From IMG/VR virus record IMGVR_UViG_3300020193_000005, positions 1 to 64,000 of that record: a DNA stretch of 64,000 nt, one strand, 5' to 3'. The translations under genes were made by a program, and so were the position numbers. Source of the DNA: a virus. Position 1 is the stretch's first letter. Every line of letters begins with the position of its first letter. The notes beneath the pieces were generated by a model. It worked only from the letters and a program-made list of their open reading frames with translations. It had not been told where the DNA came from and did not search any database. Below, piece after piece: positions 18,135 to 41,717 of this stretch.

Positions 18135-19261
18135 TTGTCTTCCTCGGTCGTCGCGCTTGATTCGATACTAGCCGTGGAAGTCCGCGGCCCAGCCGGCGTC
18201 GGAGTGGTTGCCGAAAAGTCGAGAAGCAACAAATTTCTTATGAGCCAGTGAATCGGGTACGAGGAGGGATCGTTGGCCCGTTTCGCCCTGAACTTCGCCG
18301 AATACGCCATCGCCGTCTGGTAGTTGTGCGCCGACATCATGTGGTCGTCTATGAACGTCCTCACCCCGTCCCACCCCTTCGAGGCGTAATTCATTATGAG
18401 TTTCTCCGTGTCGTAATCTCTCCACAGCCTTCTTTGAGCGTCTATCTGCGGGTACGCGTCGTACAGGGCGTCGTAAAACTCGGGCTCGGTGGCGACGACG
18501 TCGCCCAGCCTGCGCGAAGCCACGGCGTGCAGGGGAACGCCGACCCTGGTGTTGCTTCCGGTCATCGCCGCGGCGTCGTAGTACTCGCAGTATTCGGCTC
18601 CGTGTTCCTCCGATATGAACTTGAGCACGTCGTCGGTCGTCCAGTCGTATATGACCTTCGCGAATCTGAGCGGTATGTTTCTTTTCGCTTTGTACGGGAT
18701 GACTATGTAGTTTTCGTGCAATTTTTGAACGAGCGATCTGTACCTCATGATCGACTCGTTGGCTCTGACACCGGTGATGAACGCGACCTTCCCCTTCTTG
18801 CCCTGCATGGTGTAGTAGTCGATGGAGCTCGGCAGAGGGACGTCCCTGCTCAGTCCGAAGGATTCCGCCGTTATGGCCCACTCCGGCAAGGGTCTCATCA
18901 GTCTCCCTTCGTCCTCGCGTTTTTTGGACCACAACATCTCGGCCCATCGCAAGCCGAGCGAATAAACCTCGTTTCCGTACGGCATGCAGTACCACTCCAT
19001 GTCGACCCAATCGTAGTTTCTGACTTTTTCCACGAAATTGAGCGTCATGGGACTGACCAGCTCCTCGTCCCGAAAAATTACCCTTACTTTTCCGAGATTT
19101 CTTTCGTCGTGTACTTCCTTGGCGAGATAAAGAATCGCCGTCGAATCCTTACCGCCCGAAAATTGGACGCAGACAGTATCGAAGGTGTCGTAGACGTGTC
19201 GCATTCTCTCGCGCGCCGCGTCGACGCAACTCATGTTCAGGTAAAGTTTTTTCCTCGGCAT
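18131..19261 (-). CDS. PAPS-reductase-family PP-loop protein (IbrA/DndC-like)
   Basis: A 376-residue adenine-nucleotide alpha hydrolase-type protein. The PP-loop SGGKDST is at residues 35-41 inside CVQFSGGKDSTAILYLAKEV; a second conserved block is KVAFITGVRANESIMRYRS, and a W-T-T-x-D-V-L-K-F-I segment follows, as in PAPS reductases and in DndC/IbrA. It lacks an obvious C-terminal ECGLH motif of true assimilatory reductases, which argues against simple sulfate reduction. It is sandwiched by two ParB-like genes with ATGA overlaps on both sides, the arrangement of IbrA-IbrB pairs. Possible roles are nucleotide or tRNA thiolation, DNA modification, or regulation. Confidence 0.8.
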   Translation of the reverse strand: MPRKKLYLNMSCVDAARERMRHVYDTFDTVCVQFSGGKDSTAILYLAKEVHDERNLGKVRVIFRDEELVSPMTLNFVEKVRNYDWVDMEWYCMPYGNEVYSLGLRWAEMLWSKKREDEGRLMRPLPEWAITAESFGLSRDVPLPSSIDYYTMQGKKGKVAFITGVRANESIMRYRSLVQKLHENYIVIPYKAKRNIPLRFAKVIYDWTTDDVLKFISEEHGAEYCEYYDAAAMTGSNTRVGVPLHAVASRRLGDVVATEPEFYDALYDAYPQIDAQRRLWRDYDTEKLIMNYASKGWDGVRTFIDDHMMSAHNYQTAMAYSAKFRAKRANDPSSYPIHWLIRNLLLLDFSATTPTPAGPRTSTASIESSATTEEDK

Positions 19262-25323: not shown

Positions 25324-25473
25324 ATGACCTCCAGGTCGACCATCGCTAATACGTTGATGGCTTCATTTATACTGTTTACTGGAATAGGTACGTTTTTGAT
25401 TAATCCGATCGTCGGCTTCATAACCCTTGGAGTCGTCTGCGGAGCCGTCGGATACCTGCTCGGAATGGAGTAA
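25324..25473 (+). CDS. Small two-helix membrane protein upstream of portal
   Basis: From ATG 25324 this encodes 49 residues, TIANTLMASFILFTGIGTFL then INPIVGFITLGVVCGAVGYL and LGME: two glycine-rich membrane helices with a short turn. The frame is open back to a TTG at 25249, which would add 25 residues. It ends eight bases before the portal ATG, and its last codons contain the portal's GGAG site. Small membrane proteins of this type are often found beside portal genes in phages of Gram-positive bacteria; their role is unknown. A competing antisense frame covers the same bases, so confidence is moderate. Confidence 0.6.
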   Translation: MTSRSTIANTLMASFILFTGIGTFLINPIVGFITLGVVCGAVGYLLGME

Positions 25474-25480
25474 ACCCTCA

Positions 25481-27715
25481 ATGGCCTGGAACACGACGTC
25501 GAATAAGAGCGCTGGCACGAGTGGCGTGAAAGCCCTGAACCCCGGGGCTCCCGTCGCATACAACCCGTCGCAGGTCGGCAAGCCGTACCGAGACGCCTGG
25601 GACATAGAGCGCGCCTACAGAGAGGGGTTTCAGAAAGTCACGTGGGTGAATAGATGCATAGACGCCATCGCCGGAAACCAGTCGCGTCTCCCGGTCGTAC
25701 TAAGAGAGAACAACGATCCCGCGGGAAGAATCGTAAGACAGTCGGACAGAAAAATCCTGGACATACTCAACACCAAATCGAACATGGGCGAGAACTCGTT
25801 CGTTTTCAGGTACCGGCTCTCATCGCAATTGCTGATGTCGTCGCGCGGGGCGTTCATCGAGAAGATTCGCGGTAGGGACGGCGAATTGATCGCCCTACAG
25901 CTACTTCCTCCGCAACACACCTCCCCGATACCGGATCCAAGGAGGTTCGTATCCGGTTTCGAGGTCGACATGAGGAACGGCACGAAGGTCGTTTTAAAGC
26001 CGCAGGACGTCGTGTGGATCAGGAAACCGCATCCCCTGGATCCGTATTTGTCGTTGACCCCGATGGAGGCCGCCGGAATCGCAATAGAAATAGAGAATTT
26101 GTCCAAGCTTTACAACAGGAATTTCCTTCTCAACGACGGAAGACCCGGCGGGTTGCTGGTCGTGCGCAGCGAAATAGACGACGACGACAAGGACGAACTG
26201 AGAAATCGTTTCAGGGGAAACGTCAGTAGGGCGGGAGCCGTCACCGTGATATCCGCCGACGAGGGAATAGATTTCGTGGACACCGGGCAGAGCCCCAGGG
26301 ACGCCAATTACGTACAAATGAGGCAAATTCAGAAAGAAGAGATACTCGCCGCTTTCGGGGTTCCGGAGTCCGTAATCGGGAACGCCGCCGGAAGAACTTT
26401 TTCCAACGCGGCGGAGGAGCACAAGGTTTTCTGGAACGAAACCATGCTTCCGCACCTCGAGACGATCGCCCGAGGACTCGACGAAGTCGACGACGATTAC
26501 TACATAGATTTCGACGTCACCGACGTTCCGGTTCTCGTGCTTTACAAACAGGAGCGAGATAGGTATCTGATGAACGAGTATCAAACCGGTCTCATCAGCG
26601 GCAACGAATACAGGGAGGGTGCGGGAAGAAAGAAAATAGATTCCGAATTGATGGACGCGATGTTGACGAACCCCAATCTCACGCCGATCGGATACACGAA
26701 TAAGAAGTTCGAACCGCAGGCGGCGATGGCCATGCCAGGGGGTTCCGTGCCCCCGGCTGGAGCCCCGGGCGGACCGATGATACCCGGTACGCAACCGGCT
26801 CTACCCATGGAACCGTCGATGGCCGCTCCCCAGGAGGGGATGACGGCGGCTCTCGCGGCCGAGGGAGAGGTGCCGATGCAGGTCAAGTCGGTCGAGATCG
26901 ACGAACTCTCGGAGACCGAGAATTTGATGAAGAGCGCCGTCGTCGACGACGAACAGATCCAAACCAAACTCCTCAACGACGAATGGAGCTACAAGGTGGA
27001 GGAGTCGCTGACCAGGTGGAGCGAAATCCTCGAGTCGTCGCTCGAGCGTTTCGTAGAAAGACAGCAACGCGTGGTGCTCGAGAAGGCGACCGGCTCCAAA
27101 TCCAGAAAATCGCTCGAGGCGAAATCCCTGGATTCCGAGACGATATTCGACCAAGCGGTATGGGACAAACAATTGAACGAGGATTTGCGTCCGATAATCA
27201 ACGGAATAATGAACGACGCCAGCATGTCGGTTACTCAGGATTTCGGCATGCAGGCGGAACCCGACGAGGAAGAAATCAAGACGCAGCTTGATTTACAAAT
27301 CGAGAGAATTCAAAAGATAAACGAAACCACGGCCAAGGAGGTTTCGGCCGCCGTTCTTATCGCGGTTTCCATGGAGGACGGCGAGGACAAACTCGGAATG
27401 CTCAAAGCCGCCCTCATAGCGGTCTTCGCCAACATGCTCGCCAAAAGAAAGAAGGTCATAGCGGAGAACGAGGCTTGGACGGCCTACAACACCGGATCCT
27501 TCTTGGCCGCTAAATCGGTCGGCGCATTCAAGAAAACTTGGATTTCCGAGAGGGATAAGAACGTGAGACCCGAGCACGCGGCGTTGGACGGACAAACCGT
27601 TCCGATAGGGGAACCGTTCGCGGTGATGGGGGAGAGCATCAAATACCCAGGAGATCCCTCGGCACCGCTGCATCTTACGATAAATTGTCGTTGCAAAGTT
27701 CGTTTTGCAATTTAG
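25481..27715 (+). CDS. Portal protein fused to MuF (SPP1 gp7-like) domain
   Basis: A 744-residue protein starting at ATG 25481 with GGAG 10 bases upstream; an earlier in-frame ATG overlaps the membrane gene and is rejected. Residues about 30-420 are an HK97-type portal: YREGFQKVTWVNRCIDAIAGNQS, NTKSNMGENSFVFRYRLSSQLLMSSRGAFIEK, LTPMEAAGIAIEIENLSKLYNRNFL, then PESVIGNAAGRTFSNAAEEHKVFWNETMLP. A Pro/Gly/Met-rich linker follows. Residues about 500-744 are a MuF domain, ending KTWISERDKNVRPEHAALDGQTVPIGEPF...YPGDPSAPLHLTINCRCKV, with the D-x-x-V-R-x-x-H and I-N-C-R-C signatures. MuF proteins enter the virion; here one is carried on each portal subunit. Confidence 0.93.
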   Translation: MAWNTTSNKSAGTSGVKALNPGAPVAYNPSQVGKPYRDAWDIERAYREGFQKVTWVNRCIDAIAGNQSRLPVVLRENNDPAGRIVRQSDRKILDILNTKSNMGENSFVFRYRLSSQLLMSSRGAFIEKIRGRDGELIALQLLPPQHTSPIPDPRRFVSGFEVDMRNGTKVVLKPQDVVWIRKPHPLDPYLSLTPMEAAGIAIEIENLSKLYNRNFLLNDGRPGGLLVVRSEIDDDDKDELRNRFRGNVSRAGAVTVISADEGIDFVDTGQSPRDANYVQMRQIQKEEILAAFGVPESVIGNAAGRTFSNAAEEHKVFWNETMLPHLETIARGLDEVDDDYYIDFDVTDVPVLVLYKQERDRYLMNEYQTGLISGNEYREGAGRKKIDSELMDAMLTNPNLTPIGYTNKKFEPQAAMAMPGGSVPPAGAPGGPMIPGTQPALPMEPSMAAPQEGMTAALAAEGEVPMQVKSVEIDELSETENLMKSAVVDDEQIQTKLLNDEWSYKVEESLTRWSEILESSLERFVERQQRVVLEKATGSKSRKSLEAKSLDSETIFDQAVWDKQLNEDLRPIINGIMNDASMSVTQDFGMQAEPDEEEIKTQLDLQIERIQKINETTAKEVSAAVLIAVSMEDGEDKLGMLKAALIAVFANMLAKRKKVIAENEAWTAYNTGSFLAAKSVGAFKKTWISERDKNVRPEHAALDGQTVPIGEPFAVMGESIKYPGDPSAPLHLTINCRCKVRFAI

Positions 27716-27785: not shown

Positions 27786-27803
27786 TGATTGACGAAGGCA
27801 CTG

Positions 27804-28373
27804 ATGAAAAACACGCAAATCACAGAAGACTCTTCGTACTTGTACAAGTCCCTAAACGGACAGATCAACATAGACGAAGCCAAGGGCGTGGTGGAGGCGT
27901 TCGTCGCCGGAATCGGTAACAAGGATTCTGTAAACGACATATGTTTACCCGGTTGCTTCACCAATTCCCTCGCCAGACGAAAACCCAGAGTCGTGTGGGG
28001 TCACGACTGGAATTCCCCCATCGGCAAAGTTTTGGAGATATACGAAGTAGGACCGAACGATCCGCGACTGCCGGCGAGAATGAGAAAAGCCGGCGTCGGC
28101 GGTTTGTACGTCAAGGTTCAATTCAACCTGAAGGCGGAGAAGGGTAGGGAGGCTTTCGCCAACGTTTCGTTTTTCGACATGGAGCAGGAATGGTCGATCG
28201 GGTACAAGACCCTCGACGCGGTATTCGATCCGGTGCAAAACGCGAATCTCCTCAAGGAGGTGGAGCTGTACGAAGTCTCTCCCGTGTTGCACGGCGCCAA
28301 TCAACTCACCGGAACCATATCCATCAAAGCCGACGGGACCGAAACGCAGATCAAGGACGGGCAGGGTCCTTGC
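27804..28373 (+). other. Module: S78 (HK97-type) prohead protease domain
   Basis: Residues 1-190 of polyprotein 1. VVEAFVAGIGNKDSVNDICLPGCF gives the strand and N-K-D/D turn; RRKPRVVWGHDWNSPIGKVL holds the catalytic His; FDMEQEWSIGYKTLDA holds the catalytic Ser in the S-I-G-Y motif; LYEVSPVLHGANQLTGT is the family's closing strand. The protease matures capsid precursors in HK97-type phages. Being at the N-terminus of a polyprotein full of repeated motifs makes it the obvious candidate to cut them. Confidence 0.9.
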
Positions 28374-31300
28374 TGGCCCGGATACAAACAGGTCGGCACG
28401 AAGAAGGGCAAGGGCGGGAAGATGGTTCCCAACTGCGTGCCAGTCGACGGCAAATCGCTCGAGGACGAGTGTTGCCCTGACGAAAAAGCGGCCGATAAAC
28501 CGGTCCTACGCGATCCCAAGGGTGGATTGACGGCCGCCGGGAGGGCCCATTTCAAGAGAACCGAGGGCGCGAATCTGAAACCGGGCGTGAAGGGCGCGGC
28601 CGACACGCCGGAGAAAATGCGCAGGAAGGGTTCCTTCCTCACGCGCTTCTTCACCAATCCCAGCGGTCCGATGAAGAAACCGAACGGCAAGCCCACCAGG
28701 CTCGCCCTCTCCGCCGCCGCCTGGGGGGAGCCGGTACCCCAGGACGCGTCCGATGCCGCGAAATTGGCGGCAAAGGGTAGAAGATTGCTGGAGAGATACG
28801 AAAAGACCAAGAAGAAAAAGAAAGACGATTCCGATTCGACGCAAAACAAAAATCACGTAGAGGCGATTTATTCCGCCTACAATTCGCAAAGCAACGAAAG
28901 CTTCGGCAGAGCCTCCATGTTGACCAGGTCCCTGGCGAAACATTTCGGCGGAGCGGTAAGACTCGTGAAAGCCGACAATGACATAGCGATTTTCGAAATG
29001 GGTGCCGGTACCGGGACGGAAATGCTGAGAGTCGCCTACCACTACGACGGCGACGAGTTCATGTTCGGGACTGCGCAAAAAGTAAAGCCCGAAACCGTGT
29101 TCATCCCGATCGGTAGCGAGGGCGCTCCTACGGGCGGGATCGTCACCTCGCCGTCCGCCACGACTCCGCAGACCCCGATGCTCGCCGCGGGCGTTCCCTC
29201 GGCATCGTGTTGCGATTCGTGCGCCGCCGGGAAGAACGTTTGCGCAAGTCCGAAATCTTTGGCGACTTGGGAAGAATTCACGGAAAAAAACGACGGTAAT
29301 CATTCGTTGTTCGTTCTCGAAAGAGGGGACGACCCGACGGAGATTTTTGACGCGTTGTCCGCCGTAGGCGAATATCACGGATTTTCTGTCAAGACCCTCA
29401 ACGACGGATTCCTCATCGAGGACTACGACTCCCTTTCGGACGAAGCCGTGGAGGCGGTGGGGACGCTGGGTCGCGCGATGGAGCAAAAAGCTTTACGCAG
29501 ACTGAGGGGGCGAGGCTCACGAGGGAACATGGATCCGCGAACGGCCATAGACGCCGATCTGGACAGACTCGTGCTCGAGGGAATACCGATGATCAACCTC
29601 GGTCGCGGCGTACCGGATCCCACGCCTTTCGGGAATGTTCCCGATGTGGGAGGGGGTCGTGCCGAGAGGCTTGCGCGAACTCTTTCTCCGAGGGTGCGAC
29701 GTAACCAGCAGAGGACGATGGGACAACTTGAAGGTGCAATAGAGCCTTCGCTCATGGATAGGGCCACGGAGAGGGTCGCTAGGGGAATGGACGCCGCCGA
29801 GACCAGAATCAGCGATCAAATGGGTCGTTTCGTTGGCGATTTAAGGGAGGAGCGAGACGCGAGAAAGGCGAGAAGGTTCGAAAAGGCGAAGAAGAGGGCT
29901 CAAAAGAGGGGTTGGTTGCCCACCGAAGAACAACTCGCCCGAAAGAGGTCGGCGGAAGAAGCGCTTTTCGACTTGGATGATCAGGAGGACATGCTTCTCG
30001 CGATGGAGCAAACGAGACGATCCCGGATGGGTCTTCCGGCGATGTCGCGAGAAGAGTCGGCAAGAATGCTCGACAGGAACATTCCCGATCGCCACGAAAA
30101 ACGCAAGAAACTTTACGACGAGCTTTACGGCGACAGCGGAGCGATGCGAAGCGAAATGCCGGCCGTACCCTACCCGCAACGACAACCAGAGAAAGTTCCC
30201 GAGCGCGTCCCCGAGAAAGTTCCAGAGAAAGTTCCCGAGAAAGTTCCCGAGAAAGTTCCCGAGAAAGTTCCCGAGAAAGTTCCCGAGAAAGTTCCCGAGA
30301 AAGTTCCCGTAAAACCGACGCGCGTCCCCGAGAAAGTTCCCACGAAGCCGCAACGCGTCCCCGAGAAAGTTCCCACGAAGCCGCAACGCGTCCCCGCCAA
30401 GCCGCAACGCGTCCCCGAGAAGGTTCCAGTGAAACCAGCGCGGGTCCCCAGGAAGGTTCCAGCACGCACCTCCGCCGACTCCGGGGCGATGTCGAAGGAG
30501 CCCGAGAAAGGCGATCAAATTAGATTTTACGGAAGCTCGGATCCTTACACGAAACTACAGCCCGGAACGATGGGCAGGGTGACGAGAGTCGCTCCGGACG
30601 GAACGATTTCGGTGGAGTGGGAAGACGGAAGTTCTTTGAAGATGATTCCCGGCGAGGACGTCTTCCAAATCATGCCGCCGGCTAAAACCTACGCAGACTT
30701 GAATCAACTCATAGAAAGCCCTTGGCGCTTTGACGAAAACATAAGTCTTCACCTGGATCCGAAAACCGGAGTTATTTATGAAGCCGACGCCTACGGTCAA
30801 TTGGTCGAACGACTCGGAGACGGGGCGAAGCTGACCCAATTGAACGAGTTCAACATCGATGATACCGACTCCGTCGGCTACGACGACGCAGGCAATCTGG
30901 TCAATCGCGGACCGGACGGGGACGAAATAATCTTCACGGCGGAGCAGCTCGGCGATTCGGGTGCGATGACTCGTCCGTTGCCGGGAATGTCCGAAGAAGA
31001 ATACGAGGCATGGCTCGCGGAACATCGCGCAAAGAGCAAGTGGAAGGGGCGGAGGGGCACCGGGATCTTCGTGGACCCCGACACGGGCAAGCCGGCGAGT
31101 CCGAAAGACAAAGAAGTCCTCGACAAAGTGATGGAACAAATGCTGGCTGCCATAGAAAGCGACGATCCCGACTCAATTCACTCCATGGAAGATCTTACGA
31201 ACGCTACAAGGAATCCGGACGGAAGCTGGTCCTTTGACTCTCCCGAGGCCGTCATAGAAATAATAGAGGGAGAGGCGGCCGGGGATACGCCAGAAGAAAT

Positions 31301-34300
31301 TCTGGACAGAATTCGCCGCGCCAACGGCGAAGTGGACGACGAAGCGGAAGGCGATTCGGGTGAAATGACCGTGAATCGCGGGGTTCCGGACGACGTGCGT
31401 AGGGTCGTACAGGGAACGGACAGAAGCAATTTGGTCGGCGGGCGTGCCGAGCCGATGAGGAGAGCCAACGAAGCCCTCGTTTCCGCGGCCAACCGCACGA
31501 TTCGTCCGGAATCGAGCGGAGACACCACGGATCCCGCATCTCGGGCGGCCAGCGACATCATTAAAACTTTTGATCAGTTCAAGCTTTCTCAGGCGGAAGT
31601 GGACGATCACATCGAGAGAATCAAGGCGTCCATGGGTCGGATGGTCGGCGAGGTCGGTAATTCCGAGTCGAGAGAAAAAATCATCGACACCTTCAATAGG
31701 GTGCTCGGAAAACTCACTCCGGAACAGATCGCCTTCGAGCGATCGAGGATAAGGGAGAGAATAAAGAACGCCGGGTTCGACGAAATGCGCCGTATGTTCG
31801 GATTGGACGACGAATCCAATTCCGGAGCCATGGCGAAAAGAGCCGCCAAAACCCCGGAAAAACTGGAACGATTCGAAAGGGAAGATCTCGGAAGGCGCAT
31901 ATGGCTGGAGCGAACCTACGACGGCAAGACGCTCGACGACGTAGCCAGAAAACACAGAATGAGTCGGGAAGCCGCGCGTCAACTGGAGATTATGCACGCC
32001 AGAAAACTGAACGGAATGGATCCCTCATCGGACAACAGGGTAGGTAGATCGACCATAGAAAGAGTCGTGTCGAGATCCGCAATCGGGCTCTCTGATCAGG
32101 AAGCCGACCTCCTACGCAGAAGATTCGACGGAGAACTCCTTGAAGAGTCGGCCAGGAGAATGAGGATGGACAAAAACGCCGTTCGGAGAATGGAACAGCT
32201 CGCTCTCAGAAAGATGCGGGATTTCATCGTGGCGGCGGAAAAATTCGAAAACGAAGCGGATTCCGGCGCGATGCGTCGCGGATCTGGAGGCACGGCGGCA
32301 GACGCCGACCGCCCAAAAGGTCGTAGGTTTCCGGGGCGTAGAGCCCGGAAGACACCAGGTTTCACGATTCCCGAAATGGTGGAGTCGCTAAGCGACAGTT
32401 ACGGCAGCGACATGTCCAGATCCGACATCATCGCCGCCGCCGTACTGATGCGCATAAGAAGATCGATGACCGACAAAATAGACTATCTACTGGCGAAGGG
32501 AGCGAGAAGTAGGAGATTCTCCGCCCTGGCCGACGAAATAACCAAAGCCGACGCCGTCTACAAAGACGGCTCGACCACCGGATCCGCTTTCGTCAAGACC
32601 GTTTTCGGCTCCAGCGCTGAATTGAAAAAACTGATCCAGAGAAGAGCGAACAGAATCGACGAGGTAAAAGACGTTGACGGAATAGTGAACGCAAGAACCG
32701 CCGTAACCCTCGAGGAGGTCGGCGGCGACGTGAGGGAAGCCGCGCAAAAATTGGGCATTGATCCCAAGGTCGTGGAGAGACGGGCTATCGCTCACTCGAT
32801 CATCGCCCAAGCGATAGCGACTCCGGAAACGCTGAAAATAGCGTCGCAGATAGATTCGCAATTCGCTTACGGGATCCTGTCGCCGAAACAAAAAACGCTT
32901 ATCAAATTATGGTTGGCCGGTTTCAGCCCCGAGGAAATAGCCGAGACGCTAAACATGACGAGAGCCGACGCATGGAGGGATCTCGGAAGAGCGGTAAGAC
33001 GAATGTCCATGGGCAACCCCGAATGGGTGAGCGAAAAAAACAGAAGAACCATCGCTTCCGTTGATTTGGCCAGCGACGAAGCCGGAGTTTTCTCGGAGTT
33101 GACGCTTTCCGACGGATCGAAACACAGGAACTACCTATCAAAGAGCCCCATCGGTAGCGGAGCAAGCGGAGCAATGGCCAGGGCCGAGGTGGTGAGCGTC
33201 GCCACGGACGCCGGCGAGGAAAGTTACGTGATGGTTCCGGCGAGAGGGGACAGGAATCCTTCATCCTTCTCGCTCTTCCCGTTGAGAACCAGGAACGAGG
33301 ATTTGATTTACGAAGCCGTCGCGGCGGAGGCGAGCGGGATGCTCAATTCCGGTTTGTTCGCGAGAATAGTCACGGACGAATCCGGTGATCAGAAATTGTT
33401 CGCCGGATCCCTCGGAAAGAATTCGATAAAAACGCTATCGGAGATCGGAACCGTCAACGAGAGAACTCCGTTCGTGACGTCTCTCGCTTCGGACGAAAGG
33501 TACGGAAAAGCCCTTCTAGCGAAGTACGACGATCTAAGGAACGTCCTATCCGATACTCCGTTCTCGGAGAATCTGGGCGTGGACGACCGTCGTCTTTCCA
33601 GACTGTCGGAAATCTCGGAAAAAATAAGGAACTCGGCCGCCGTAACGCCGGAAGAAATAGTCGTCATGGATTCCATATTGTCCGAAATCGACGACTCGAG
33701 GCGATCGGCCATACGTCGCCTACCCCACGATTTCGACGAGGAGACGACCGATTCCTTCGTCAACGCCGCCGACGATAGGAGATTTTCGTACGCAGAAAAC
33801 GACGGCGGAAAAACTGTTCCGTACGCCAAAAGAATGCTCGGGTTGGGTTCGCCGAACGCGAGAGAATTTTACCTACGCGTCGGCAAAGACGGAAAACTTT
33901 ACAAGTGGAATCATCCGAACAATCTCGAAAACGACATAGGATCCTGGGCGGATTCCGCGGTCGGGGAGGAATTCATTCCGTCGAGAGACGACGTCAGGGC
34001 GATTGCTTACGACTCGACCGGCGTTACGAGATCCCTCGTTGGCGACGGAGATTCCGGGGCGATGAGTCTTCCCGGAGAGGGAACCGAGTACCGAGAGGAC
34101 GACAACGAAGTCGTCATAATTTCTGACGGTATTTCGGAAGCATCCATCGGCGGGGCGGCGTATTTGGCCATCGGTCAGAATAAACCCCTGTCTTTTGCGT
34201 ACTACAAGAAGGGATCGGGATGGGAAAAAAGATCGGTCGTTCCGAGGGATCTGGTCAGAGGGGTGTACAAAGCCGTGAAACGCGACGACGGATCAACCGT

Positions 34301-37300
34301 CTTCGTTTTCCATAAAGCCGACGCCCCGAAAGGATATTTGTTCCTTAGGGCTTTCGATCCGAATAGGAACGAGGCGAGAGAATTCAGGCTGGACAGAATC
34401 GGCGGAATCGGCAACCTGACGTCTCAACCCAAATCCACGAACGCCGCGCCGTCCGGAACTCCGCAGGGCAATACCCCGACGGGTTCGACGCCGCCGAAAC
34501 AAGTTTTCCCGAAACAAATTTTCACTCGTGCCGGCAAAGTCGGACAAGCGACCGTGTGGGTTGATCAACATCCGGTCAGACCGAGCGCCAGACAATCCGC
34601 GTACGAAAAGACGATCGTGGTCGCCGATGCCCCGGTGGCCGGCTATCTCGACGAAGCCTTGAAAGAAATCGGGGAAGGGAGTTTCTTGGAGGGTTATCAG
34701 GGCGACGCTTCGGTGGTGCTTTCGGTCCTGATGGACGCGCTCGGCGACGAAAAACATCCGTTGCACGACAGAGCCAACAAATACATGCTCGCCATGGAAT
34801 CGAAAAAATTAGGCAAACTCCTCGGTAGGACGGCATACAGAAAATCCGGCCTGCAAGGTCCTCCGCTCAGAAGAAGGGCCAAACCGTGGGGTGGCGACCG
34901 GGGAAATACCAAGTTGGCGGATTTCGAGTCGTGGACCGATCCGCAGCAGATGTACGACTGGGCGCGAACCGGGGACTATGTCCTTTTCGACGTGGAAACG
35001 ACCGGATCCCCGGGACTCGATGCATCCGCCGCCGAGATAGCGAGAAAAACCCCGCAGGGAAGGGTCGTTCAAATTGCCATGACCCCCGTAAAGAACGGAG
35101 TCCCGGGACAAACGAAAATTTGGTGGGTCAAACCATTGGACGACGACGGCAACGCAGTGGAGATGAGCGACTGGACGAAGGAAAACGTGCCCGGTCCCGA
35201 CGGTGCAAGAACGCTAACCGACCAGTTGGCGATGAACGATCCGAGATTCGTGGATCCCGCGGTCGCGTGGAGGGAGGTGTCCGATTGGCTCAAATCGGAA
35301 TTCGGGGATTCTCCGATTCTGGTCGGATACAATTCGGCCAACTTCGACATGCCGATCGCCGAAAGAATGATCGACGACCGAGATCTCAAAATTGGTTGGT
35401 TCGACGTCATGGTCCTCGCGGATCAGGTTCTGTACGCGGAAAGCCAGGCCTTCGACGACCTTAGCAAGATTTCCGTAGATAGAAGGAAATCCGGTCGGGT
35501 CGTACCCGGTTTCGCGGCGGGAACCGTGATTAGCATGGCCGGGTTTTCTAAGCGTCATAAAGCGAACCGAGGTTCCAGACTGATATTCGGACCCGCCAAC
35601 TTTCATCCGGTACTCGACGGCAGCGGGAAGCCCACGTTCAAGCCGGACGGCAAACCGAAGATGCAACCTAAGTTCAGGATAAACCTCGAGAGTCTCAAAG
35701 AGTGGGCCGGGGTGAAAACACGAAGAGCCGCCCACGCCGCCGACGTCGACAACGACGTCACGCACAGGGTGATGCTAGCCCTGACCGAACATCAAACGAA
35801 ACGCGGCAGGGCTCTTCACATGTTCGACAAAGACTTGCGAAATCAATTGGAAAGATACCTACGGGAAGAGTACGAATTCAGGGCGAGTACGCACGAAGCG
35901 AGGAAAAACCAGGGTTCTTTCTTCGGATTCAATTCGCCCAGAGCCGATAGCGGCGGCGCGAGACCGAATGAACCGGCCGACGTCGGGGACGCTACGACCG
36001 GTTACGCCGAATCGTACGGAAATGTCGTCGGCTCTCGGGAGACCGGGAGAAGAGTTGTGGGTAGACCGTCCGTAAGGGTAATCGGCGATTATCCGGGATT
36101 GCCGTTTTACGTCGTCTCCTCGAACGGGGAGGAAACAATCTTGATAGGACCGGAATTCTGGACGGACGGAATAGACCCGGACACGAGAGAACCGTTACTG
36201 CTTAGAAACCAGAAAGCTCTGATCCCGATGATCGGACAAGCCAGAAAATCCGGACGCGGTATTCAATTCGTCTACGGGAGGCGCGACGACGGATCACCGG
36301 TCAACTACGAAATATTCGCCCTCGAACTGGTGCCCGACGACGGCATGACGATGGAGGAGGCGAGAATAGCAACCGAACGAGATCGAAGAATCAGATTTAG
36401 TCTTGCCGGAACCCTAAGAAACGGAATGTCGTTTGAATTTTCTTTCAAGGACATAGGCAATCCCGACGCTCCACCGCCCAGAGCGAGCGAATACGTTCCA
36501 ATGACGGGCGAGGAAGTTTCGGGAGTCACGGACGCGATTCTCATGACTCCGGCCCAATACTCCGATCAGTTGATGAGAAAACGCGTCATTGCGTTGCGTA
36601 ATAGTCGTAGCGGGGGCTCCGGGTCGTCGACGTCGGGGACCGATTCCGGCGCGATGTCCGGTTTGACGAATCGCTACGGCGGTTCGGGGGGATTGGAAGC
36701 GTGGATACCCGACGAGAAATATAAGTCCTTCTCCTCCATGGACGAATCTCAGCTAAGAGCGATAGTCGAACGAACCAGGAGATCCGTGAACGATTTGATT
36801 CTCGCCGACAAGCTGAGAGGAGTCGCCGTCAACGAGGCGCTCGACAGGCTGAGAAACGCCGAGGCGGTTTTGGCACTTTCGCGCGGTCCGGTGATCGACG
36901 ACGCCGGTTTCTCCGTTTCGAGAGGACCCGACGGAACCGTTTCCGTTTCCGGATTCACGAATTTCTCTCCGTTCAAAGCGAGATCGTCCTACGCGTTGCC
37001 GACCGGAAGGAGTCGGCGAAAGGAGATGAACAAAAACGCGCAAATATCCCTGAAATTCGACAGGGAGATCGAGAACTCCCCCAAGGGAATGGCTCTCAGG
37101 ACTTTGGCGAGAAATTTGCGAATGGATCTTGACGAACTTGGATCTCGCCTCGAGTCCCACGATTTCGGCACGTATTCGGACGCCATCTATTCGTCAGAAA
37201 TGAGAAGGAACAAAAAGCTGTTCGATAACGGTTCTCTGACGCCGGAAAACTCTGGATTGTTCCTGCCGAGAGGTGCGAGTCGAATCGAAATGACCGCGAG

Positions 37301-39041
37301 AATGTCGAGCGCCGCTTCCTCCATCGGGTTGGGTTTCGGCGATTCCGGAGCGATGGCCATAGAAGGACCGTACACGAAAGACACCTCGAAATACGCGGGA
37401 ATGACCGACGACGAGCTGATCGACTCGTGGAACAAAACGCTTGCCGACCTGTTCGGCGTGACGGTGGAGGGAATTTCGCCGGAACGGATCGCAGAAACGA
37501 GCAGAGGTCGTTACGGCGACAGAAACTTCAACGCCAGGGCTCATTTGATCAAATCCCACCTGGAGGCGATAGCGAGCGAAATACGAAGAAGATTCTTCGC
37601 CAGCGAGGAAGGGAAAGCCGCGATAGATCAAATCCTCGAGGAAGGAAACGACTCCGGCGCCATGTCGTTGGATCCAGACAATAAACCGTTCTCGGGATCG
37701 TTGTGGCTGGATTCGAGACTACGGGAGATGTACGGAAGTCGCTGGCAAGAGATAGCCGCCGGGATAGGTAGACGATTTGCCAACTTCGGCGACAGGAATT
37801 GGAGCGACCCGACGGACGACGACGCGGTCGATCTTTATCACTACGCGGCCATGCTGCAACACGACGCTGTCGTGAGCGTGATGAAATCGGTCTCTGGCGC
37901 GGAAGATCGCTCCGAACTTGCGCGGAGGCTTACGAACAGCGCGGTGGGCGTAGTTGCTTTTATCTCGTTGCAAATACCGCTGACGACGGAGCAGATAGAG
38001 GATCAGATACAAAGAGGACGAATGATATCCAACATGCGAGAGCTCGCGGCGCTTGATCCGTACTCCAGGGTGGAGGCGATGATCGAAAAACGAAACGCGG
38101 AGATAGTGCAGAGAGTGATGGACGCAAAGAGGAGCACGCTGACCCCCGAGGAGTTTTCCGATTGGTACAAGGGAGTCATCGAAAGACTGGCCAGAAGCGA
38201 GACGACCTTGGCCGAATCTCCGGAGGGGTTATTCGGAGAGCCGGGGGATCAAGAAGCCCTGGATCAATTCATTGATTTCTACGAAAAAGACGCGGGAGTC
38301 TCCGGGAGGACTGGCGGAACCGACGACGGGGATTCCGGGAAAATGAGCAAGTCCTCGCGCCGTTCTTCGCCCAAAGCCGTTTACGATGCCAGGAGGATCT
38401 ACGGAGAGACTCCCGAAGAGATAGCCAAGCGACTCGGAATTGGAAAGGAAAAAGTACTGGAGCTGGAACAGCGATACGTCGACCAGGTCAACGCCAGAAT
38501 ATCCGCCGCGATTGATATCAAGAAAATGAAACTGAACCGCGAGAACTATTGGCCGGTGGAAGGAGTTCAAGAAGGCGCCATAAATCGAGTATACGATGAC
38601 GACACCTCCGTAGCTTTTTACACAATGTTTGACACGCTTCTGGGGCGAAGGAGCCGTGGCGGTCACTGGTGGTCTCCGCTCAACAAAGAAGGCGTGGCAA
38701 TTACCGAAAGAGAACTCAAGGGGTACCTCGCTTATCTTTCCCGGGTCGTCGACGTTTTGGATGATGAATACAAGGATCAGGAAGCCGCGAATTTGTTCAG
38801 GAGGAGCATAAAGATTCTTTCGGAAACTCTCAAAGACGGTTCGTACGGCGACGTCACTGGTGACTCCGGGGCTATGCGCAGGAACTTCGTAGAGCCCAGA
38901 TACGACATAAAACCACATCAGGGGGGGTGGGTCATCATAGACACGAAGAACAGAAACGCCATATCCAGCAGGGTTTTTAGCGACAGGCTCGAAGCGCTCA
39001 GGGGCGCGAAGCGAATGGACAGGGGGGAATCCGTCAATTAG
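27804..39041 (+). CDS. Giant polyprotein 1: prohead protease fused to about 13 modules
   Basis: The ATG at 27804 is preceded by GAAGG; a TTG five codons earlier is less likely. The 3745-residue product starts with an S78 prohead protease (residues 1-190). A Cys/Lys-rich linker with GPCWPGYKQVGTKKG and a DUF6321-like segment (GLTAAGRAHFKRTEGANLK) follow, then the 35-residue LGRG tag (residues 576-610). From residue 777 on, D-S-G-A-M or close variants recur at 777, 892, 1051, 1184 (E), 1339 (N-S-G-A-M), 1486, 1787 (A-S-G-A-M), 2083, 2947, 3180, 3283, 3510 (K) and 3687, dividing it into blocks of 22 to 860 residues. Recognisable blocks: DUF4314-like, sigma-70 region-4-like HTHs, WYL-like, DEDDh exonuclease; the rest are unknown. 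I infer a packaged, processed polyprotein. Confidence 0.9.
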   Translation: MKNTQITEDSSYLYKSLNGQINIDEAKGVVEAFVAGIGNKDSVNDICLPGCFTNSLARRKPRVVWGHDWNSPIGKVLEIYEVGPNDPRLPARMRKAGVGGLYVKVQFNLKAEKGREAFANVSFFDMEQEWSIGYKTLDAVFDPVQNANLLKEVELYEVSPVLHGANQLTGTISIKADGTETQIKDGQGPCWPGYKQVGTKKGKGGKMVPNCVPVDGKSLEDECCPDEKAADKPVLRDPKGGLTAAGRAHFKRTEGANLKPGVKGAADTPEKMRRKGSFLTRFFTNPSGPMKKPNGKPTRLALSAAAWGEPVPQDASDAAKLAAKGRRLLERYEKTKKKKKDDSDSTQNKNHVEAIYSAYNSQSNESFGRASMLTRSLAKHFGGAVRLVKADNDIAIFEMGAGTGTEMLRVAYHYDGDEFMFGTAQKVKPETVFIPIGSEGAPTGGIVTSPSATTPQTPMLAAGVPSASCCDSCAAGKNVCASPKSLATWEEFTEKNDGNHSLFVLERGDDPTEIFDALSAVGEYHGFSVKTLNDGFLIEDYDSLSDEAVEAVGTLGRAMEQKALRRLRGRGSRGNMDPRTAIDADLDRLVLEGIPMINLGRGVPDPTPFGNVPDVGGGRAERLARTLSPRVRRNQQRTMGQLEGAIEPSLMDRATERVARGMDAAETRISDQMGRFVGDLREERDARKARRFEKAKKRAQKRGWLPTEEQLARKRSAEEALFDLDDQEDMLLAMEQTRRSRMGLPAMSREESARMLDRNIPDRHEKRKKLYDELYGDSGAMRSEMPAVPYPQRQPEKVPERVPEKVPEKVPEKVPEKVPEKVPEKVPEKVPEKVPVKPTRVPEKVPTKPQRVPEKVPTKPQRVPAKPQRVPEKVPVKPARVPRKVPARTSADSGAMSKEPEKGDQIRFYGSSDPYTKLQPGTMGRVTRVAPDGTISVEWEDGSSLKMIPGEDVFQIMPPAKTYADLNQLIESPWRFDENISLHLDPKTGVIYEADAYGQLVERLGDGAKLTQLNEFNIDDTDSVGYDDAGNLVNRGPDGDEIIFTAEQLGDSGAMTRPLPGMSEEEYEAWLAEHRAKSKWKGRRGTGIFVDPDTGKPASPKDKEVLDKVMEQMLAAIESDDPDSIHSMEDLTNATRNPDGSWSFDSPEAVIEIIEGEAAGDTPEEILDRIRRANGEVDDEAEGDSGEMTVNRGVPDDVRRVVQGTDRSNLVGGRAEPMRRANEALVSAANRTIRPESSGDTTDPASRAASDIIKTFDQFKLSQAEVDDHIERIKASMGRMVGEVGNSESREKIIDTFNRVLGKLTPEQIAFERSRIRERIKNAGFDEMRRMFGLDDESNSGAMAKRAAKTPEKLERFEREDLGRRIWLERTYDGKTLDDVARKHRMSREAARQLEIMHARKLNGMDPSSDNRVGRSTIERVVSRSAIGLSDQEADLLRRRFDGELLEESARRMRMDKNAVRRMEQLALRKMRDFIVAAEKFENEADSGAMRRGSGGTAADADRPKGRRFPGRRARKTPGFTIPEMVESLSDSYGSDMSRSDIIAAAVLMRIRRSMTDKIDYLLAKGARSRRFSALADEITKADAVYKDGSTTGSAFVKTVFGSSAELKKLIQRRANRIDEVKDVDGIVNARTAVTLEEVGGDVREAAQKLGIDPKVVERRAIAHSIIAQAIATPETLKIASQIDSQFAYGILSPKQKTLIKLWLAGFSPEEIAETLNMTRADAWRDLGRAVRRMSMGNPEWVSEKNRRTIASVDLASDEAGVFSELTLSDGSKHRNYLSKSPIGSGASGAMARAEVVSVATDAGEESYVMVPARGDRNPSSFSLFPLRTRNEDLIYEAVAAEASGMLNSGLFARIVTDESGDQKLFAGSLGKNSIKTLSEIGTVNERTPFVTSLASDERYGKALLAKYDDLRNVLSDTPFSENLGVDDRRLSRLSEISEKIRNSAAVTPEEIVVMDSILSEIDDSRRSAIRRLPHDFDEETTDSFVNAADDRRFSYAENDGGKTVPYAKRMLGLGSPNAREFYLRVGKDGKLYKWNHPNNLENDIGSWADSAVGEEFIPSRDDVRAIAYDSTGVTRSLVGDGDSGAMSLPGEGTEYREDDNEVVIISDGISEASIGGAAYLAIGQNKPLSFAYYKKGSGWEKRSVVPRDLVRGVYKAVKRDDGSTVFVFHKADAPKGYLFLRAFDPNRNEAREFRLDRIGGIGNLTSQPKSTNAAPSGTPQGNTPTGSTPPKQVFPKQIFTRAGKVGQATVWVDQHPVRPSARQSAYEKTIVVADAPVAGYLDEALKEIGEGSFLEGYQGDASVVLSVLMDALGDEKHPLHDRANKYMLAMESKKLGKLLGRTAYRKSGLQGPPLRRRAKPWGGDRGNTKLADFESWTDPQQMYDWARTGDYVLFDVETTGSPGLDASAAEIARKTPQGRVVQIAMTPVKNGVPGQTKIWWVKPLDDDGNAVEMSDWTKENVPGPDGARTLTDQLAMNDPRFVDPAVAWREVSDWLKSEFGDSPILVGYNSANFDMPIAERMIDDRDLKIGWFDVMVLADQVLYAESQAFDDLSKISVDRRKSGRVVPGFAAGTVISMAGFSKRHKANRGSRLIFGPANFHPVLDGSGKPTFKPDGKPKMQPKFRINLESLKEWAGVKTRRAAHAADVDNDVTHRVMLALTEHQTKRGRALHMFDKDLRNQLERYLREEYEFRASTHEARKNQGSFFGFNSPRADSGGARPNEPADVGDATTGYAESYGNVVGSRETGRRVVGRPSVRVIGDYPGLPFYVVSSNGEETILIGPEFWTDGIDPDTREPLLLRNQKALIPMIGQARKSGRGIQFVYGRRDDGSPVNYEIFALELVPDDGMTMEEARIATERDRRIRFSLAGTLRNGMSFEFSFKDIGNPDAPPPRASEYVPMTGEEVSGVTDAILMTPAQYSDQLMRKRVIALRNSRSGGSGSSTSGTDSGAMSGLTNRYGGSGGLEAWIPDEKYKSFSSMDESQLRAIVERTRRSVNDLILADKLRGVAVNEALDRLRNAEAVLALSRGPVIDDAGFSVSRGPDGTVSVSGFTNFSPFKARSSYALPTGRSRRKEMNKNAQISLKFDREIENSPKGMALRTLARNLRMDLDELGSRLESHDFGTYSDAIYSSEMRRNKKLFDNGSLTPENSGLFLPRGASRIEMTARMSSAASSIGLGFGDSGAMAIEGPYTKDTSKYAGMTDDELIDSWNKTLADLFGVTVEGISPERIAETSRGRYGDRNFNARAHLIKSHLEAIASEIRRRFFASEEGKAAIDQILEEGNDSGAMSLDPDNKPFSGSLWLDSRLREMYGSRWQEIAAGIGRRFANFGDRNWSDPTDDDAVDLYHYAAMLQHDAVVSVMKSVSGAEDRSELARRLTNSAVGVVAFISLQIPLTTEQIEDQIQRGRMISNMRELAALDPYSRVEAMIEKRNAEIVQRVMDAKRSTLTPEEFSDWYKGVIERLARSETTLAESPEGLFGEPGDQEALDQFIDFYEKDAGVSGRTGGTDDGDSGKMSKSSRRSSPKAVYDARRIYGETPEEIAKRLGIGKEKVLELEQRYVDQVNARISAAIDIKKMKLNRENYWPVEGVQEGAINRVYDDDTSVAFYTMFDTLLGRRSRGGHWWSPLNKEGVAITERELKGYLAYLSRVVDVLDDEYKDQEAANLFRRSIKILSETLKDGSYGDVTGDSGAMRRNFVEPRYDIKPHQGGWVIIDTKNRNAISSRVFSDRLEALRGAKRMDRGESVN
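29529..29633 (+). repeat. LGRG tag, copy 1 (in polyprotein 1)
   Basis: Thirty-five residues beginning MDPRTAIDADLDRLVLEGI and ending NLGRGVPDPTPFG. The same segment recurs in polyproteins 2, 4 and 5 with three to seven differences. Here it follows the protease and linker region and precedes an Arg-rich helical stretch. Confidence 0.9.
30186..30470 (+). repeat. VPEK repeat linker, 12-base tandem units
   Basis: Just after the first D-S-G-A-M site, the coding sequence runs through about nine units of GAGAAAGTTCCC (EKVP), then longer variants with KPQRVPEKVPT. The peptide is an extended Pro/Lys/Glu rod ending right before the second D-S-G-A-M. It would make a stiff spacer between cut sites. Copy number could vary by slippage. 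Confidence 0.9.
31833..33161 (+). other. Modules: three sigma-70 region-4-like HTH units
   Basis: Between the N-S-G-A-M at 31818 and the D-S-G-A-M at 32259 lie two units: RIWLERTYDGKTLDDVARKHRMSREAARQLEIMHARKL and LSDQEADLLRRRFDGELLEESARRMRMDKNAVRRMEQLALRKM. After 32259 a third appears: LSPKQKTLIKLWLAGFSPEEIAETLNMTRADAWRDLGRAVRRM. The L-(S/T)-x-x-(E/Q)-x-x-(L/I) helix, turn and A-x-x-x-x-x-(R/K)-x-(L/M) recognition helix follow sigma region 4.2. No region 2 is visible, so they may bind promoters or RNA polymerase without being full sigma factors. Confidence 0.7.
34065..34440 (+). other. Module: WYL-like ligand-binding domain
   Basis: After the D-S-G-A-M at 34050: ISEASIGGAAYLAIGQNKPLSFAYYKKGSGWEKRSVVPRDLVRGVYKAV...YLFLRAFDPNRNEAREFRLDRIGGI. 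The hydrophobic-x-F-x-Y strand, R-x-V-x-P turn, and R-x-F-R-L-D-R-I ending match the WYL pattern, although the W-Y-L triad itself is not exact. WYL domains sense ligands and often sit in transcription regulators. Confidence 0.6.
34900..35880 (+). other. Module: DEDDh 3'-5' exonuclease 1
   Basis: Exo I is VLFDVETTGSPG with Asp2396 and Glu2398 of polyprotein 1; Exo II is VGYNSANFDMPIAERM with Asp2515; Exo III is HAADVDND with His2644 and Asp2649 (H-x4-D). Between them is a hinge of about 100 residues. The full DnaQ/epsilon catalytic set is present, so the module should be an active exonuclease. It shares an uncut block with the WYL-like domain. Confidence 0.85.
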
Positions 39042-39692: not shown

Positions 39693-41717
39693 ATGGCGTC
39701 AGACAAACAGGCAACTTTGAAAATCGACGCCGACGGCAACGTCATGAGTTGCGCCAATGGTGCGATGACATCCGAATGCGGATACAAGGCTGGTTCTCTG
39801 GTTTGCGGTAAGTGCGGAGCGATGGCGGTGGAAGTCAAATACGGGATGATGCCGCAGGCCCAGGGATTCGAATGCAAGGCGAGCGGGAAGACGGTCATGG
39901 AGGCGTGCGAAGCTTGCCCGGGCGGTTGCGCCCCGATGGGGATGAAGCAAGAAGAAATGCCCGAAGAAGTTCTCGCCATGTTCAAAAAGAAAAAGCGGAA
40001 GAAAAAGATGGGTGCCGATGCCGAGGAAAAAGCCGCAGTACGGGCTTACGGCGACGTTTACGAAGACGACGAGGAAGAGGAAGAGGAAGAGGAAGAGGAA
40101 GAGATTGAGGACGGCGAAGAGGTCGAATACGAAGACGAGCCAACCCTTGCCGGTATGAGAGCTCCCGCTCCAGAGATGCAAGCCGAAGAGAGCGAGACTC
40201 CCGAGATGCAGGAGGAGGAGGGCGAGGACGAGGATCTCGTCGAGTCTCTCGCAATGGCCAGACCCCCCATGAGGAAGCGCAGAGCACCGATGATGCCTGC
40301 CCGCAGACCGATGAATGAGGAAGACTCGGAAATGATGCCTGCCCGCAGACCGATGAATGAGGAAGACTCGGAAATGATGCCTGCCCGCAGACCGATGGAT
40401 GAGGAAGACTCGGAAATGATGCCGGTCCGCAGACCGATGGATGAGGAAGACTCGGAAATGATGCCGGTCCGCAGACCGATGAATGAGGAAGACTCGGAAA
40501 TGATGCCAGCCGCCCGATCCATGCGGATGCCGGAAGAGGATGAAGAAGAAATGCCCGACAGATCCATGATGAGAAATCGTCGTCTTGCGACCATGGGATT
40601 CAAGGACGGCGAATTCGGAAATACCCCGTTCGTATGCTCAATCGAGCGCAAGGTTTATCCGGGAAACGCAAAAGTATGCGAGAACTGCCCGGGTGGATGC
40701 GTATCGGAGGGCGACATGCCGGCCCTTCTCGAGATCGAAGGAATCGCGGAGGACACTTTCGGGGGCAAGGTCCTGGATTCGGGATACTCCGACAGCGCGG
40801 ACGTCTTCGTGGTCGACATAGAACGCAAGGACGGCAAGCCGGTCGAGGCGTTTTTTGACGGCACCACAGGGGAATGTATGGGATGGCATCTTCTCAACGA
40901 AGAGGTCATGCAAGTCAAGTCCGCTTTTGAGGCTCCGCAAATGGTCAGTTTCTCGGACGCGGCGGAGATAGCCACCAAGAGCATCGCGGGGGACGTCGTC
41001 TCGATAGAAGCCGACCTGTTCGAGGGTTACGACGCCTATGCCGTGGAAATAGAGGGAGTGGACGGCAAGTCCTACGACGTGTTCGTGTCGCTTGACGGAG
41101 AAATACTCGGCTACGACACCTACACCCAGGAAGAGGCATCGGCGATCGAGTCGGAGGCGGCCGAACTCGCCCTCAAGAGGGCTCACGACGAGGTCGAGCG
41201 TAAGGAGATGGCGAGTAACGGAGAGGCCATGGACGACGGGGAAATGCCGATCAAAAACTCGGCGGATCTCAGGAACGCGATCATGTCCTGGCCGCGTTCG
41301 GCCAATAGGGACGCCGCCAAGCTTCATATCATGAGACGAGCGGCGGCGCTCGGTCTCGAGTCTTCGTTGCCGGCGGATTGGGTCGCTCAGGAGCTCGAGC
41401 AAGAGAAGTCCGACGCCAACTTCATGTCCTCTCTTCTTGAGTTCGAGATGATCGAAGCCGAATCCTCGGGAGACGATCCGGAGAGAATGGCCGAGATCTA
41501 TTTCAAGAAGATGTTCAGCGAGGAACGCAGGGGCGAACTCGCTAAGCGAGGAATGGCTCTCCCCGACGGTTCATATCCGATCGAGTCGGAAGAGGATCTA
41601 AAGAACGCGATTCAGGCGTACGGAAGAGCCAAGGACAAGGACAAAGCCAAGGCACATATTATGAAGAGGGCCAAGGCACTCGGCAAGGACGATCTAATTC
41701 CGGACAACTGGCGTTAG
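39693..41717 (+). CDS. Repeat-rich acidic protein with PepSY-like and DUF6582-like segments
   Basis: A 674-residue protein with AAGGAG ahead of ATG 39693. Order: Cys-rich start with LVCGKCGAM and EACEACPGGC (residues 1-80), Lys-rich KKKKRKKK, a polyglutamate tract of eleven, five 14-residue repeats MMPARRPMNEEDSE (about 200-269), another Cys pair VCENCPGGC, two related PepSY-like strands-and-helix units (EGIAEDTFGGKVLDSGYSDSADVFVVDIE; SIAGDVVSIEADLFEGYDAYAVEIE), and two C-terminal units DLRNAIMSWPRSANRDAAKLHIMRRAAALG and DLKNAIQAYGRAKDKDKAKAHIMKRAKALG of the phage DUF6582 type. Such domains occur in head proteins of other phages. Likely a virion or scaffold-like protein. Confidence 0.75.
   Translation: MASDKQATLKIDADGNVMSCANGAMTSECGYKAGSLVCGKCGAMAVEVKYGMMPQAQGFECKASGKTVMEACEACPGGCAPMGMKQEEMPEEVLAMFKKKKRKKKMGADAEEKAAVRAYGDVYEDDEEEEEEEEEEEIEDGEEVEYEDEPTLAGMRAPAPEMQAEESETPEMQEEEGEDEDLVESLAMARPPMRKRRAPMMPARRPMNEEDSEMMPARRPMNEEDSEMMPARRPMDEEDSEMMPVRRPMDEEDSEMMPVRRPMNEEDSEMMPAARSMRMPEEDEEEMPDRSMMRNRRLATMGFKDGEFGNTPFVCSIERKVYPGNAKVCENCPGGCVSEGDMPALLEIEGIAEDTFGGKVLDSGYSDSADVFVVDIERKDGKPVEAFFDGTTGECMGWHLLNEEVMQVKSAFEAPQMVSFSDAAEIATKSIAGDVVSIEADLFEGYDAYAVEIEGVDGKSYDVFVSLDGEILGYDTYTQEEASAIESEAAELALKRAHDEVERKEMASNGEAMDDGEMPIKNSADLRNAIMSWPRSANRDAAKLHIMRRAAALGLESSLPADWVAQELEQEKSDANFMSSLLEFEMIEAESSGDDPERMAEIYFKKMFSEERRGELAKRGMALPDGSYPIESEEDLKNAIQAYGRAKDKDKAKAHIMKRAKALGKDDLIPDNWR
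40290..40499 (+). repeat. Five 42-base tandem repeats inside the acidic repeat protein
   Basis: Five units, each coding 14 residues of the form MMPxRRPMxEEDSE, with substitutions N/D and A/V only; a degenerate sixth (MMPAARSM) follows. Near identity at DNA level points to recent duplication. There are no spacers, so it is not a CRISPR array. Confidence 0.95.

Follow-up and report, generated by a model that had tools for sequence, protein, structure and literature searches.

A prohead protease joined to a giant polyprotein, and repeated linkers as its candidate cleavage sites, in uncultured tailed phages

The polyprotein and its S78 domain

IMG/VR record IMGVR_UViG_3300020193_000005 (109,136 bp) comes from a group of widespread, uncultured tailed phages, and its positions 1 to 64,000, the stretch analysed here and referred to as the window, carry a single stop-free frame in which a prohead protease domain of the S78 family is joined to a very long cargo. 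This gene, polyprotein 1, runs from 27,789 (TTG) or 27,804 (ATG) to 39,041 and encodes 3,750 (3,745) amino acids (aa); the ATG, which matches the start in a relative (locus L014), is the likelier of the two, and residue numbers are counted from the TTG. A first-pass annotation, made from the sequence alone, had described a complete S78 protease with its catalytic His and Ser at the head of the chain, followed by 3,500 more residues. That description is accurate: about 3,570 residues follow the S78 domain with no stop, and the domain itself is recognised by three profile libraries. The Pfam Peptidase_S78 profile scores 43.7 bits against a curated cut-off of 21, the phrog_80 family ('head maturation protease') matches as well, and TIGR01543 (proheadase_HK97) gives an E of 9e-16 with 58.3 bits, slightly below its cut-off of 59. 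Both catalytic residues, and likewise Glu162, are invariant in an alignment of 20 S78 domains that includes fused relatives as well as phages of Gordonia, Brevibacterium and Streptomyces. The record holds only this one S78 match, and profile searches for the ClpP, S77 and S49 families returned none; no rival protease gene of these four families was found elsewhere.

The S78 gene sits between the portal gene and the major capsid gene, which lies about 60 kb downstream (record positions 89,204-90,637); the large terminase gene is found upstream, on the minus strand. The interval from portal to capsid is filled by seven large, multi-module frames with a total of 18,600 residues, and the polyprotein block is thus flanked by terminase, portal and capsid genes. 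Polyproteins 2 to 5, proposed in the first-pass annotation as further substrates of the protease, are indeed present (Table 1), and a sixth one lies outside the window. The modules recognised in polyprotein 1 are S78, DUF6321, DUF4314, a sigma-like helix-turn-helix (HTH) and a DEDDh exonuclease; DUF6321 is retained behind S78 in both fused and unfused relatives.

Repeated linkers between modules

The polyproteins are punctuated by a short linker of the form [G/S]-D-S-G-A-M-[S/R/T/A]. The D-S-G-A-M region pointed out in the first pass is far from a chance occurrence, since the exact DSGAM string is observed 21 times with 0.02 expected, and the broader pattern [DNE][ST]G.M 34 times with 1.04 expected from shuffled sequences. 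Information content is high at exactly seven linker positions and falls to random level, or near it, in the flanks, and the linker codons are mixed, with some bias (GGG, GCG). Taken together, these three properties indicate that the selected unit is a short recognised peptide. A recent DNA duplication of spacers is not supported, as the codons are mixed and the flanks random. Internal translation starts at the linker Met also fail as a general explanation, because of the mixed codons and because the GGxGC sequence is too near the ATG to serve as a ribosome site; in addition, the linkers of two related lineages, described below, have no Met.

The linkers are spaced at a median of 246 residues in this genome and look like cut or recognition sites in disordered gaps between modules, as judged from sequence and structure models. 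In the AlphaFold2 model of residues 1330-1808 of polyprotein 1, which has a mean predicted local distance difference test (pLDDT) value of 72, only three segments fall below 50, and they hold the three linker sites of this stretch, at 1344, at 1491 and, in the variant form ASGAM, at 1792. Only 1 of 33 linker sites overlaps a profile-matched domain, against 4.8 expected (p ~0.03). The segment between two linkers can also correspond to a complete protein: a 246-aa module of polyprotein 2 matches most of gp121 from Mycobacterium phage JoeDirt, a stand-alone protein of 242 aa, with 43% identity (E 3e-47). A cut at the first DSGAM of polyprotein 1 would free a protease fragment comprising residues 1-786, comparable in size to the unfused protease frames of relatives (785-989 aa).

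Two linker-like copies also stand close together at aa 95-109 (NSGAMRTMTQNSGAM) of a 1,776-aa open reading frame (ORF) at 6289-11619 on the minus strand, probably the tape measure gene.

Fusion state and linker change in relatives

A scan of viral contigs yielded 425 with a related S78 domain, and the best 80 of these 425 form the analysed set. Among 20 larger related records, 19 contain one S78 frame each; it is fused in 12 of the 19 (2,105-5,469 aa) and unfused in 7. The twelve nearest loci, with at least 82% identity, have over 3,300 residues joined to S78, or a frame that runs off the contig; in the next-nearest group S78 is fused to 2,576-3,044 residues where the frame end lies on the contig, and in the group at 72-80% identity it is mostly followed by 444-877 residues. 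Fused and unfused states are strongly clustered in the S78-domain tree, on which two or three changes are required. By this comparison of sequences, the fusion is conserved in relatives and is not an accident of assembly. To that extent the protease-cargo fusion of the first-pass annotation stands, whereas a need of the linkers for the fusion does not: two records with unfused protease frames of 802 and 896 aa (G005 and G010) carry genome-specific linkers in their separate polyproteins and none in the protease frame.

Across 160 loci, linkers ending in M occur in 210 unique contexts in polyproteins, against 32 in shuffled sequences, while the other ORFs of the same loci are hardly enriched (24 against 17). 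The letters of the linker, on the other hand, belong to the genome. The dominant form is EAGM (18), GPVGxM, ISGRM (13), ITGxM, R[FL]SSG (14-20) or GFSSST (5), with counts in brackets, and each genome's dominant linker greatly exceeds its shuffled counts and, in the majority of genomes, occurs in several frames; median spacing is 205-327 aa in the better sampled genomes. Even relatives whose proteases are about 87% identical carry EAGM, not DSGAM. Orthologous junctions read EAGM or SAGM, PT[GAS]SM, GPVG[SA]M or PSGSM, and thus keep a linker while its letters change. In the RFSSG lineage, a 4,740-aa frame at position 147 of locus L182 (record G011) contains a helicase-like module (GTGKTSTLVMIAERL ... 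DEAQDI) between linkers.

This pattern bears on two explanations in which nothing is cut. It could be argued that module shuffling left the linkers behind as passive hinges, a common spacer that has spread within each genome without being recognised by any factor. Their uniformity within a genome, their difference between genomes and a degree of codon bias in the sites would fit such an origin, which is nevertheless very unlikely, given that conservation ends sharply at seven residues, codons are mixed, flanks are nearly random and orthologous junctions retain a linker despite the change of letters. Alternatively, uncut linkers could serve as packaging tags, binding to some component of the capsid or core, the chains being ejected whole and unfolded. 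Such a route has a parallel in the virion RNA polymerase of phage N4, for which packaging without processing is cited in Iyer et al. 2017 (PMC5512222). A short recognised peptide at domain spacing would look alike in both cases, and drift from genome to genome would be in keeping with a co-evolving binding partner. Sites placed in disordered gaps at about domain spacing, together with modules that match stand-alone genes, fit cut sites better than tags, and there is no need for a tag at nearly every module border; packaging tags are hence considered quite improbable.

The capsid junction and the identity of the enzyme

Sixty-three distinct capsid proteins of relatives share an invariant N-G-x-N-M at the expected end of the delta domain, followed by variable sequence, and the Gordonia phages and Brevibacterium phage Cantare have an SGxxTM-like ([ST]G..M-like) sequence at the same junction. 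The capsid motif resembles the linkers that end in M, a likeness that weakly suggests cutting after Met by S78. The strict D-S-G-A-M specificity implied in the first pass is not supported. DSGAM is confined to this genome, its place being taken in relatives by EAGM, GPVGxM, ISGRM or RFSSG, and the linkers drift while the protease is nearly constant and the capsid site fully so; DSGAM is therefore not a strict S78 motif. A single strict S78 motif for capsid and linkers, considered as an explanation, is for the same reason unsupported.

These data leave room for another enzyme, either a host protease or a zincin within the polyproteins, the latter acting before packaging or following ejection, with S78 cutting the capsid protein and itself only. 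Polyproteins 2 and 4 contain metalloprotease-like HEXXH motifs, and so, less convincingly, does polyprotein 3; metalloprotease processing of the so-called polyvalent proteins has been proposed (PMC5512222); and linker drift beside a constant S78 and capsid site is what a separate, variable factor reading the linker would produce. Against this, S78 is found in 19 of the 20 related records, the HEXXH modules are cargo recorded in this genome, and in the lineages with M-ending linkers these resemble the capsid junction. Cutting by another enzyme is accordingly regarded as unlikely.

A model of prohead-stage processing

The model that we favour, with slightly more confidence than doubt, is processing of packaged polyproteins at the prohead stage, mainly in trans, with the fusion adding a coupling of protease to cargo and possibly a release in cis. 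Polyprotein 1 would be a precursor packed in the prohead core alongside the other giant polyproteins, bearing at its N-terminus the only recognised prohead protease of the phage. During head maturation, S78 would cut the delta domain of the capsid protein and also the disordered, genome-specific linkers, breaking about 19,000 precursor residues down into modules of domain size, namely HTH and sigma-like factors, ADP-ribosyltransferase-like, exonuclease, NUDIX, zeta-type kinase and metalloprotease-like domains. The modules would then leave through the portal together with the DNA. The cut at the first linker (aa 782-786) would free a protease fragment of the size found unfused in sister lineages. 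Trans cutting is likely to be the general mode because unfused lineages carry linkers too; the fusion would link the protease to its cargo and permit cis cutting, so that self-release in cis, claimed in the first-pass annotation, is possible. Packaging is inferred from gene order and domain types; ejection, linker cutting and S78 as the enzyme are inferences too.

Several observations weigh against this model. The linker varies between genomes, but variation is slight in the protease and absent in the capsid site; NGxNM stays unchanged where linkers change, RFSSG genomes included, and a linker that changes without a change in protease or capsid site is odd for one strict pair of enzyme and motif. 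The RFSSG and GFSSST lineages have a linker without a terminal Met. The AlphaFold2 model of S78 has low confidence (pLDDT 58), with no match in the PDB at E < 0.001. The HEXXH motifs of polyproteins 2 and 4 provide alternative enzyme candidates. Linker cutting by S78 is a prediction from sequence and models, and we know of no virion proteome for this clade.

A wider proposal is put forward tentatively, at somewhat less than even confidence: that this group splits more than half of its coding capacity in a picornavirus-like manner, one prohead protease, often contained in a polyprotein, cutting tens of genome-specific linkers inside the prohead, with specificity and linker co-evolving by lineage.

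Comparison with known systems

Polyvalent proteins of phages and conjugative elements combine 2-15 unlike domains (HTH, ADP-ribosyltransferase-like, kinase, exonuclease, metalloprotease), are encoded near head genes and are thought to be packaged and injected; some have assemblin-like peptidases, which are reported to be 'always' C-terminal (PMC5512222). The polyproteins described here, with several unlike enzymatic or binding domains per chain and a context of head and packaging genes, fit this description, and their context suggests injection into the host. They differ in that S78 stands at the N-terminus, ahead of about 3,570 residues, and in their genome-wide repeated linkers, of which the passages considered make no mention.

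With the HK97-family prohead proteases (S78, TIGR01543, phrog_80), the domain shares its sequence family, the His and Ser, and a position between portal and capsid genes. These proteases are usually encoded by a small gene or by a protease-scaffold fusion, in contrast to the present cargo of several thousand residues and to a capsid gene that lies at a distance of about 60 kb, or of roughly 17-61 kb in relatives. The nearest isolates by S78 are the Gordonia phages Hanem, GMA6 and DalanDe (Bendigovirus), Brevibacterium phage Cantare and Streptomyces phage Gilgamesh (33-44% identity); capsid identity to the Gordonia phages and Cantare is 44-47%. They too have cargo-like genes between portal and capsid: DalanDe has about 1,140 residues fused on the N-terminal side of its protease, and in Gilgamesh a portal-MuF fusion is followed by a gene of 4,624 aa. 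Their protease gene, however, stands immediately before the capsid gene, and no repeated linkers were found in these isolates, DalanDe included; the Gilgamesh gene was dropped as an independent case on that ground.

The nearest tested precedent is head maturation in giant phages (SPN3US, related phiKZ type), in which the single prohead protease gp245 of SPN3US recognises the short motif A-X-E in capsid, portal and many head or ejected proteins and cuts after it, with a preference for Ser at P1' (PMC10052503). There, processing mostly trims propeptides from N-termini, the protease is encoded apart from its substrates, and no modular chain is split up. In positive-strand RNA viruses, polyproteins have an embedded protease and repeated short cut sites between modules. 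The repeated, recognisable sites between modules that mark a protease-processed polyprotein are present here as well, and fusion and linkers together would amount to a bacterial virus using a polyprotein strategy like that of animal viruses; there is no homology, and this DNA phage also has ordinary separate genes. No phage polyproteins with repeated genome-specific linkers, or cut by a prohead protease, were found in the open literature, subscription papers and preprints being mostly outside that search.

If the model is right, tailed DNA phages load many effector modules into the capsid by way of genome-scale polyproteins cut by the head protease, and modules would be freely swappable between linkers. 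The lineages whose linkers differ but whose proteases are close would then provide a natural experiment on the joint change of viral proteases and their sites, and could supply small proteases of short and distinct specificity. With module borders marked by the linkers, about 19,000 residues of unannotated cargo become readable as separate proteins.

Other features of the locus

Table 1. Coordinates of the polyproteins, linkers and neighbouring features (window positions unless stated; aa, residue of polyprotein 1 unless stated)
Feature	Position	Strand	Remarks
Portal with C-terminal MuF-like domain	25427..27715	+	PF04860 E 5e-51, PF04233 E 5e-9; directly upstream of polyprotein 1
Polyprotein 1	27804..39041	+	S78 and ~3,570 residues in one frame; arrangement common to relatives; in-frame TTG upstream at 27789
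S78 prohead protease domain, aa 32-177	27882..28319	+	PF04586 E 4e-11; phrog_80 E 8e-28
Catalytic His72 (VVWGHDW)	28002..28004	+	invariant, 20 sequences
Catalytic Ser136 (EWSIGY)	28194..28196	+	invariant, 20 sequences
DUF6321, aa 241-312	28509..28724	+	PF19846 E 4e-28; also L034, L040, L020
Conserved element DPRTAxDADxDRLVLEGIPxxNLGRGVPDPTPFG	29532..29636	+	common to five polyproteins; other copies 41816-41920, 56271-56375, 62645-62749, ~aa 135 of record frame 69475
First linker DSGAM, aa 782	30132..30146	+	
Linker DSGAM, aa 897	30477..30491	+	
Linker DSGAM, aa 1056	30954..30968	+	AEAGM in L012
Linker DSGEM, aa 1189	31353..31367	+	
Linker NSGAM, aa 1344	31818..31832	+	predicted disordered
Linker DSGAM, aa 1491	32259..32273	+	predicted disordered; SAGM, SGAM, TSSM or GPVGSM in relatives
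Linker DSGAM, aa 2088	34050..34064	+	
Linker DSGAM, aa 2952	36642..36656	+	
Linker DSGAM, aa 3185	37341..37355	+	
Linker DSGAM, aa 3288	37650..37664	+	
Linker DSGKM, aa 3515	38331..38345	+	
Linker DSGAM, aa 3692	38862..38876	+	
Acidic repetitive protein	39693..41717	+	C-terminal domains against C-terminus of DalanDe protease ORF, BLASTP E 2e-20, 2e-16
Polyprotein 2	41729..48271	+	7 linkers: 41921, 41999, 43040, 44075, 44597, 45335, 47168
Inter-linker module, 246 aa, polyprotein 2 (sites 957-1203)	44612..45349	+	matches JoeDirt gp121
Polyprotein 3	48587..56170	+	4 linkers: 49553, 54293, 54359, 56015; DnaQ-like exonuclease
Polyprotein 4	56175..59045	+	HEFGH
Polyprotein 5	61985..64000, on to record 68107	+	linker DTGRM at 63308
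Sixth polyprotein, 6,466 aa, the largest	record 69,475-88,875, beyond the window		10 linkers

Five polyproteins carry, once each and near the start of the cargo part, the element D/N-PxTAxDADxDRLVLEGIPxxNxGRGxPDPTPFG. In relatives it shades into DxDGDGxxxEGTxxxRP, which resembles a calcium-binding loop, and it is a candidate targeting element that could act as a packaging signal. Between the first two linkers of polyprotein 1 lies a tract of 11 VPEKVP copies (~30150-30480, aa 790-895), and relatives have comparable proline-rich tracts after the same conserved element.

Polyprotein 2 contains an HTH array between its linkers at 438 and 783 and a HEFFH motif; the module between 957 and 1203 belongs to phrog_4776 and is ADP-ribosyltransferase-like as judged by inspection. 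No complete linker match was found in polyprotein 4. The sixth polyprotein ends in NUDIX and zeta-type kinase modules. The protein encoded between polyproteins 1 and 2 carries the repeat MMPARRPMNEEDSE in five nearly identical copies, as well as two domains at its C-terminus; it is possibly a scaffold or core protein, perhaps a scaffold that has become separated from the protease. Among the tail genes, finally, a phosphoadenosine phosphosulfate (PAPS) reductase gene is found at 18134-19261 on the minus strand (phrog_2302, E 2e-74).
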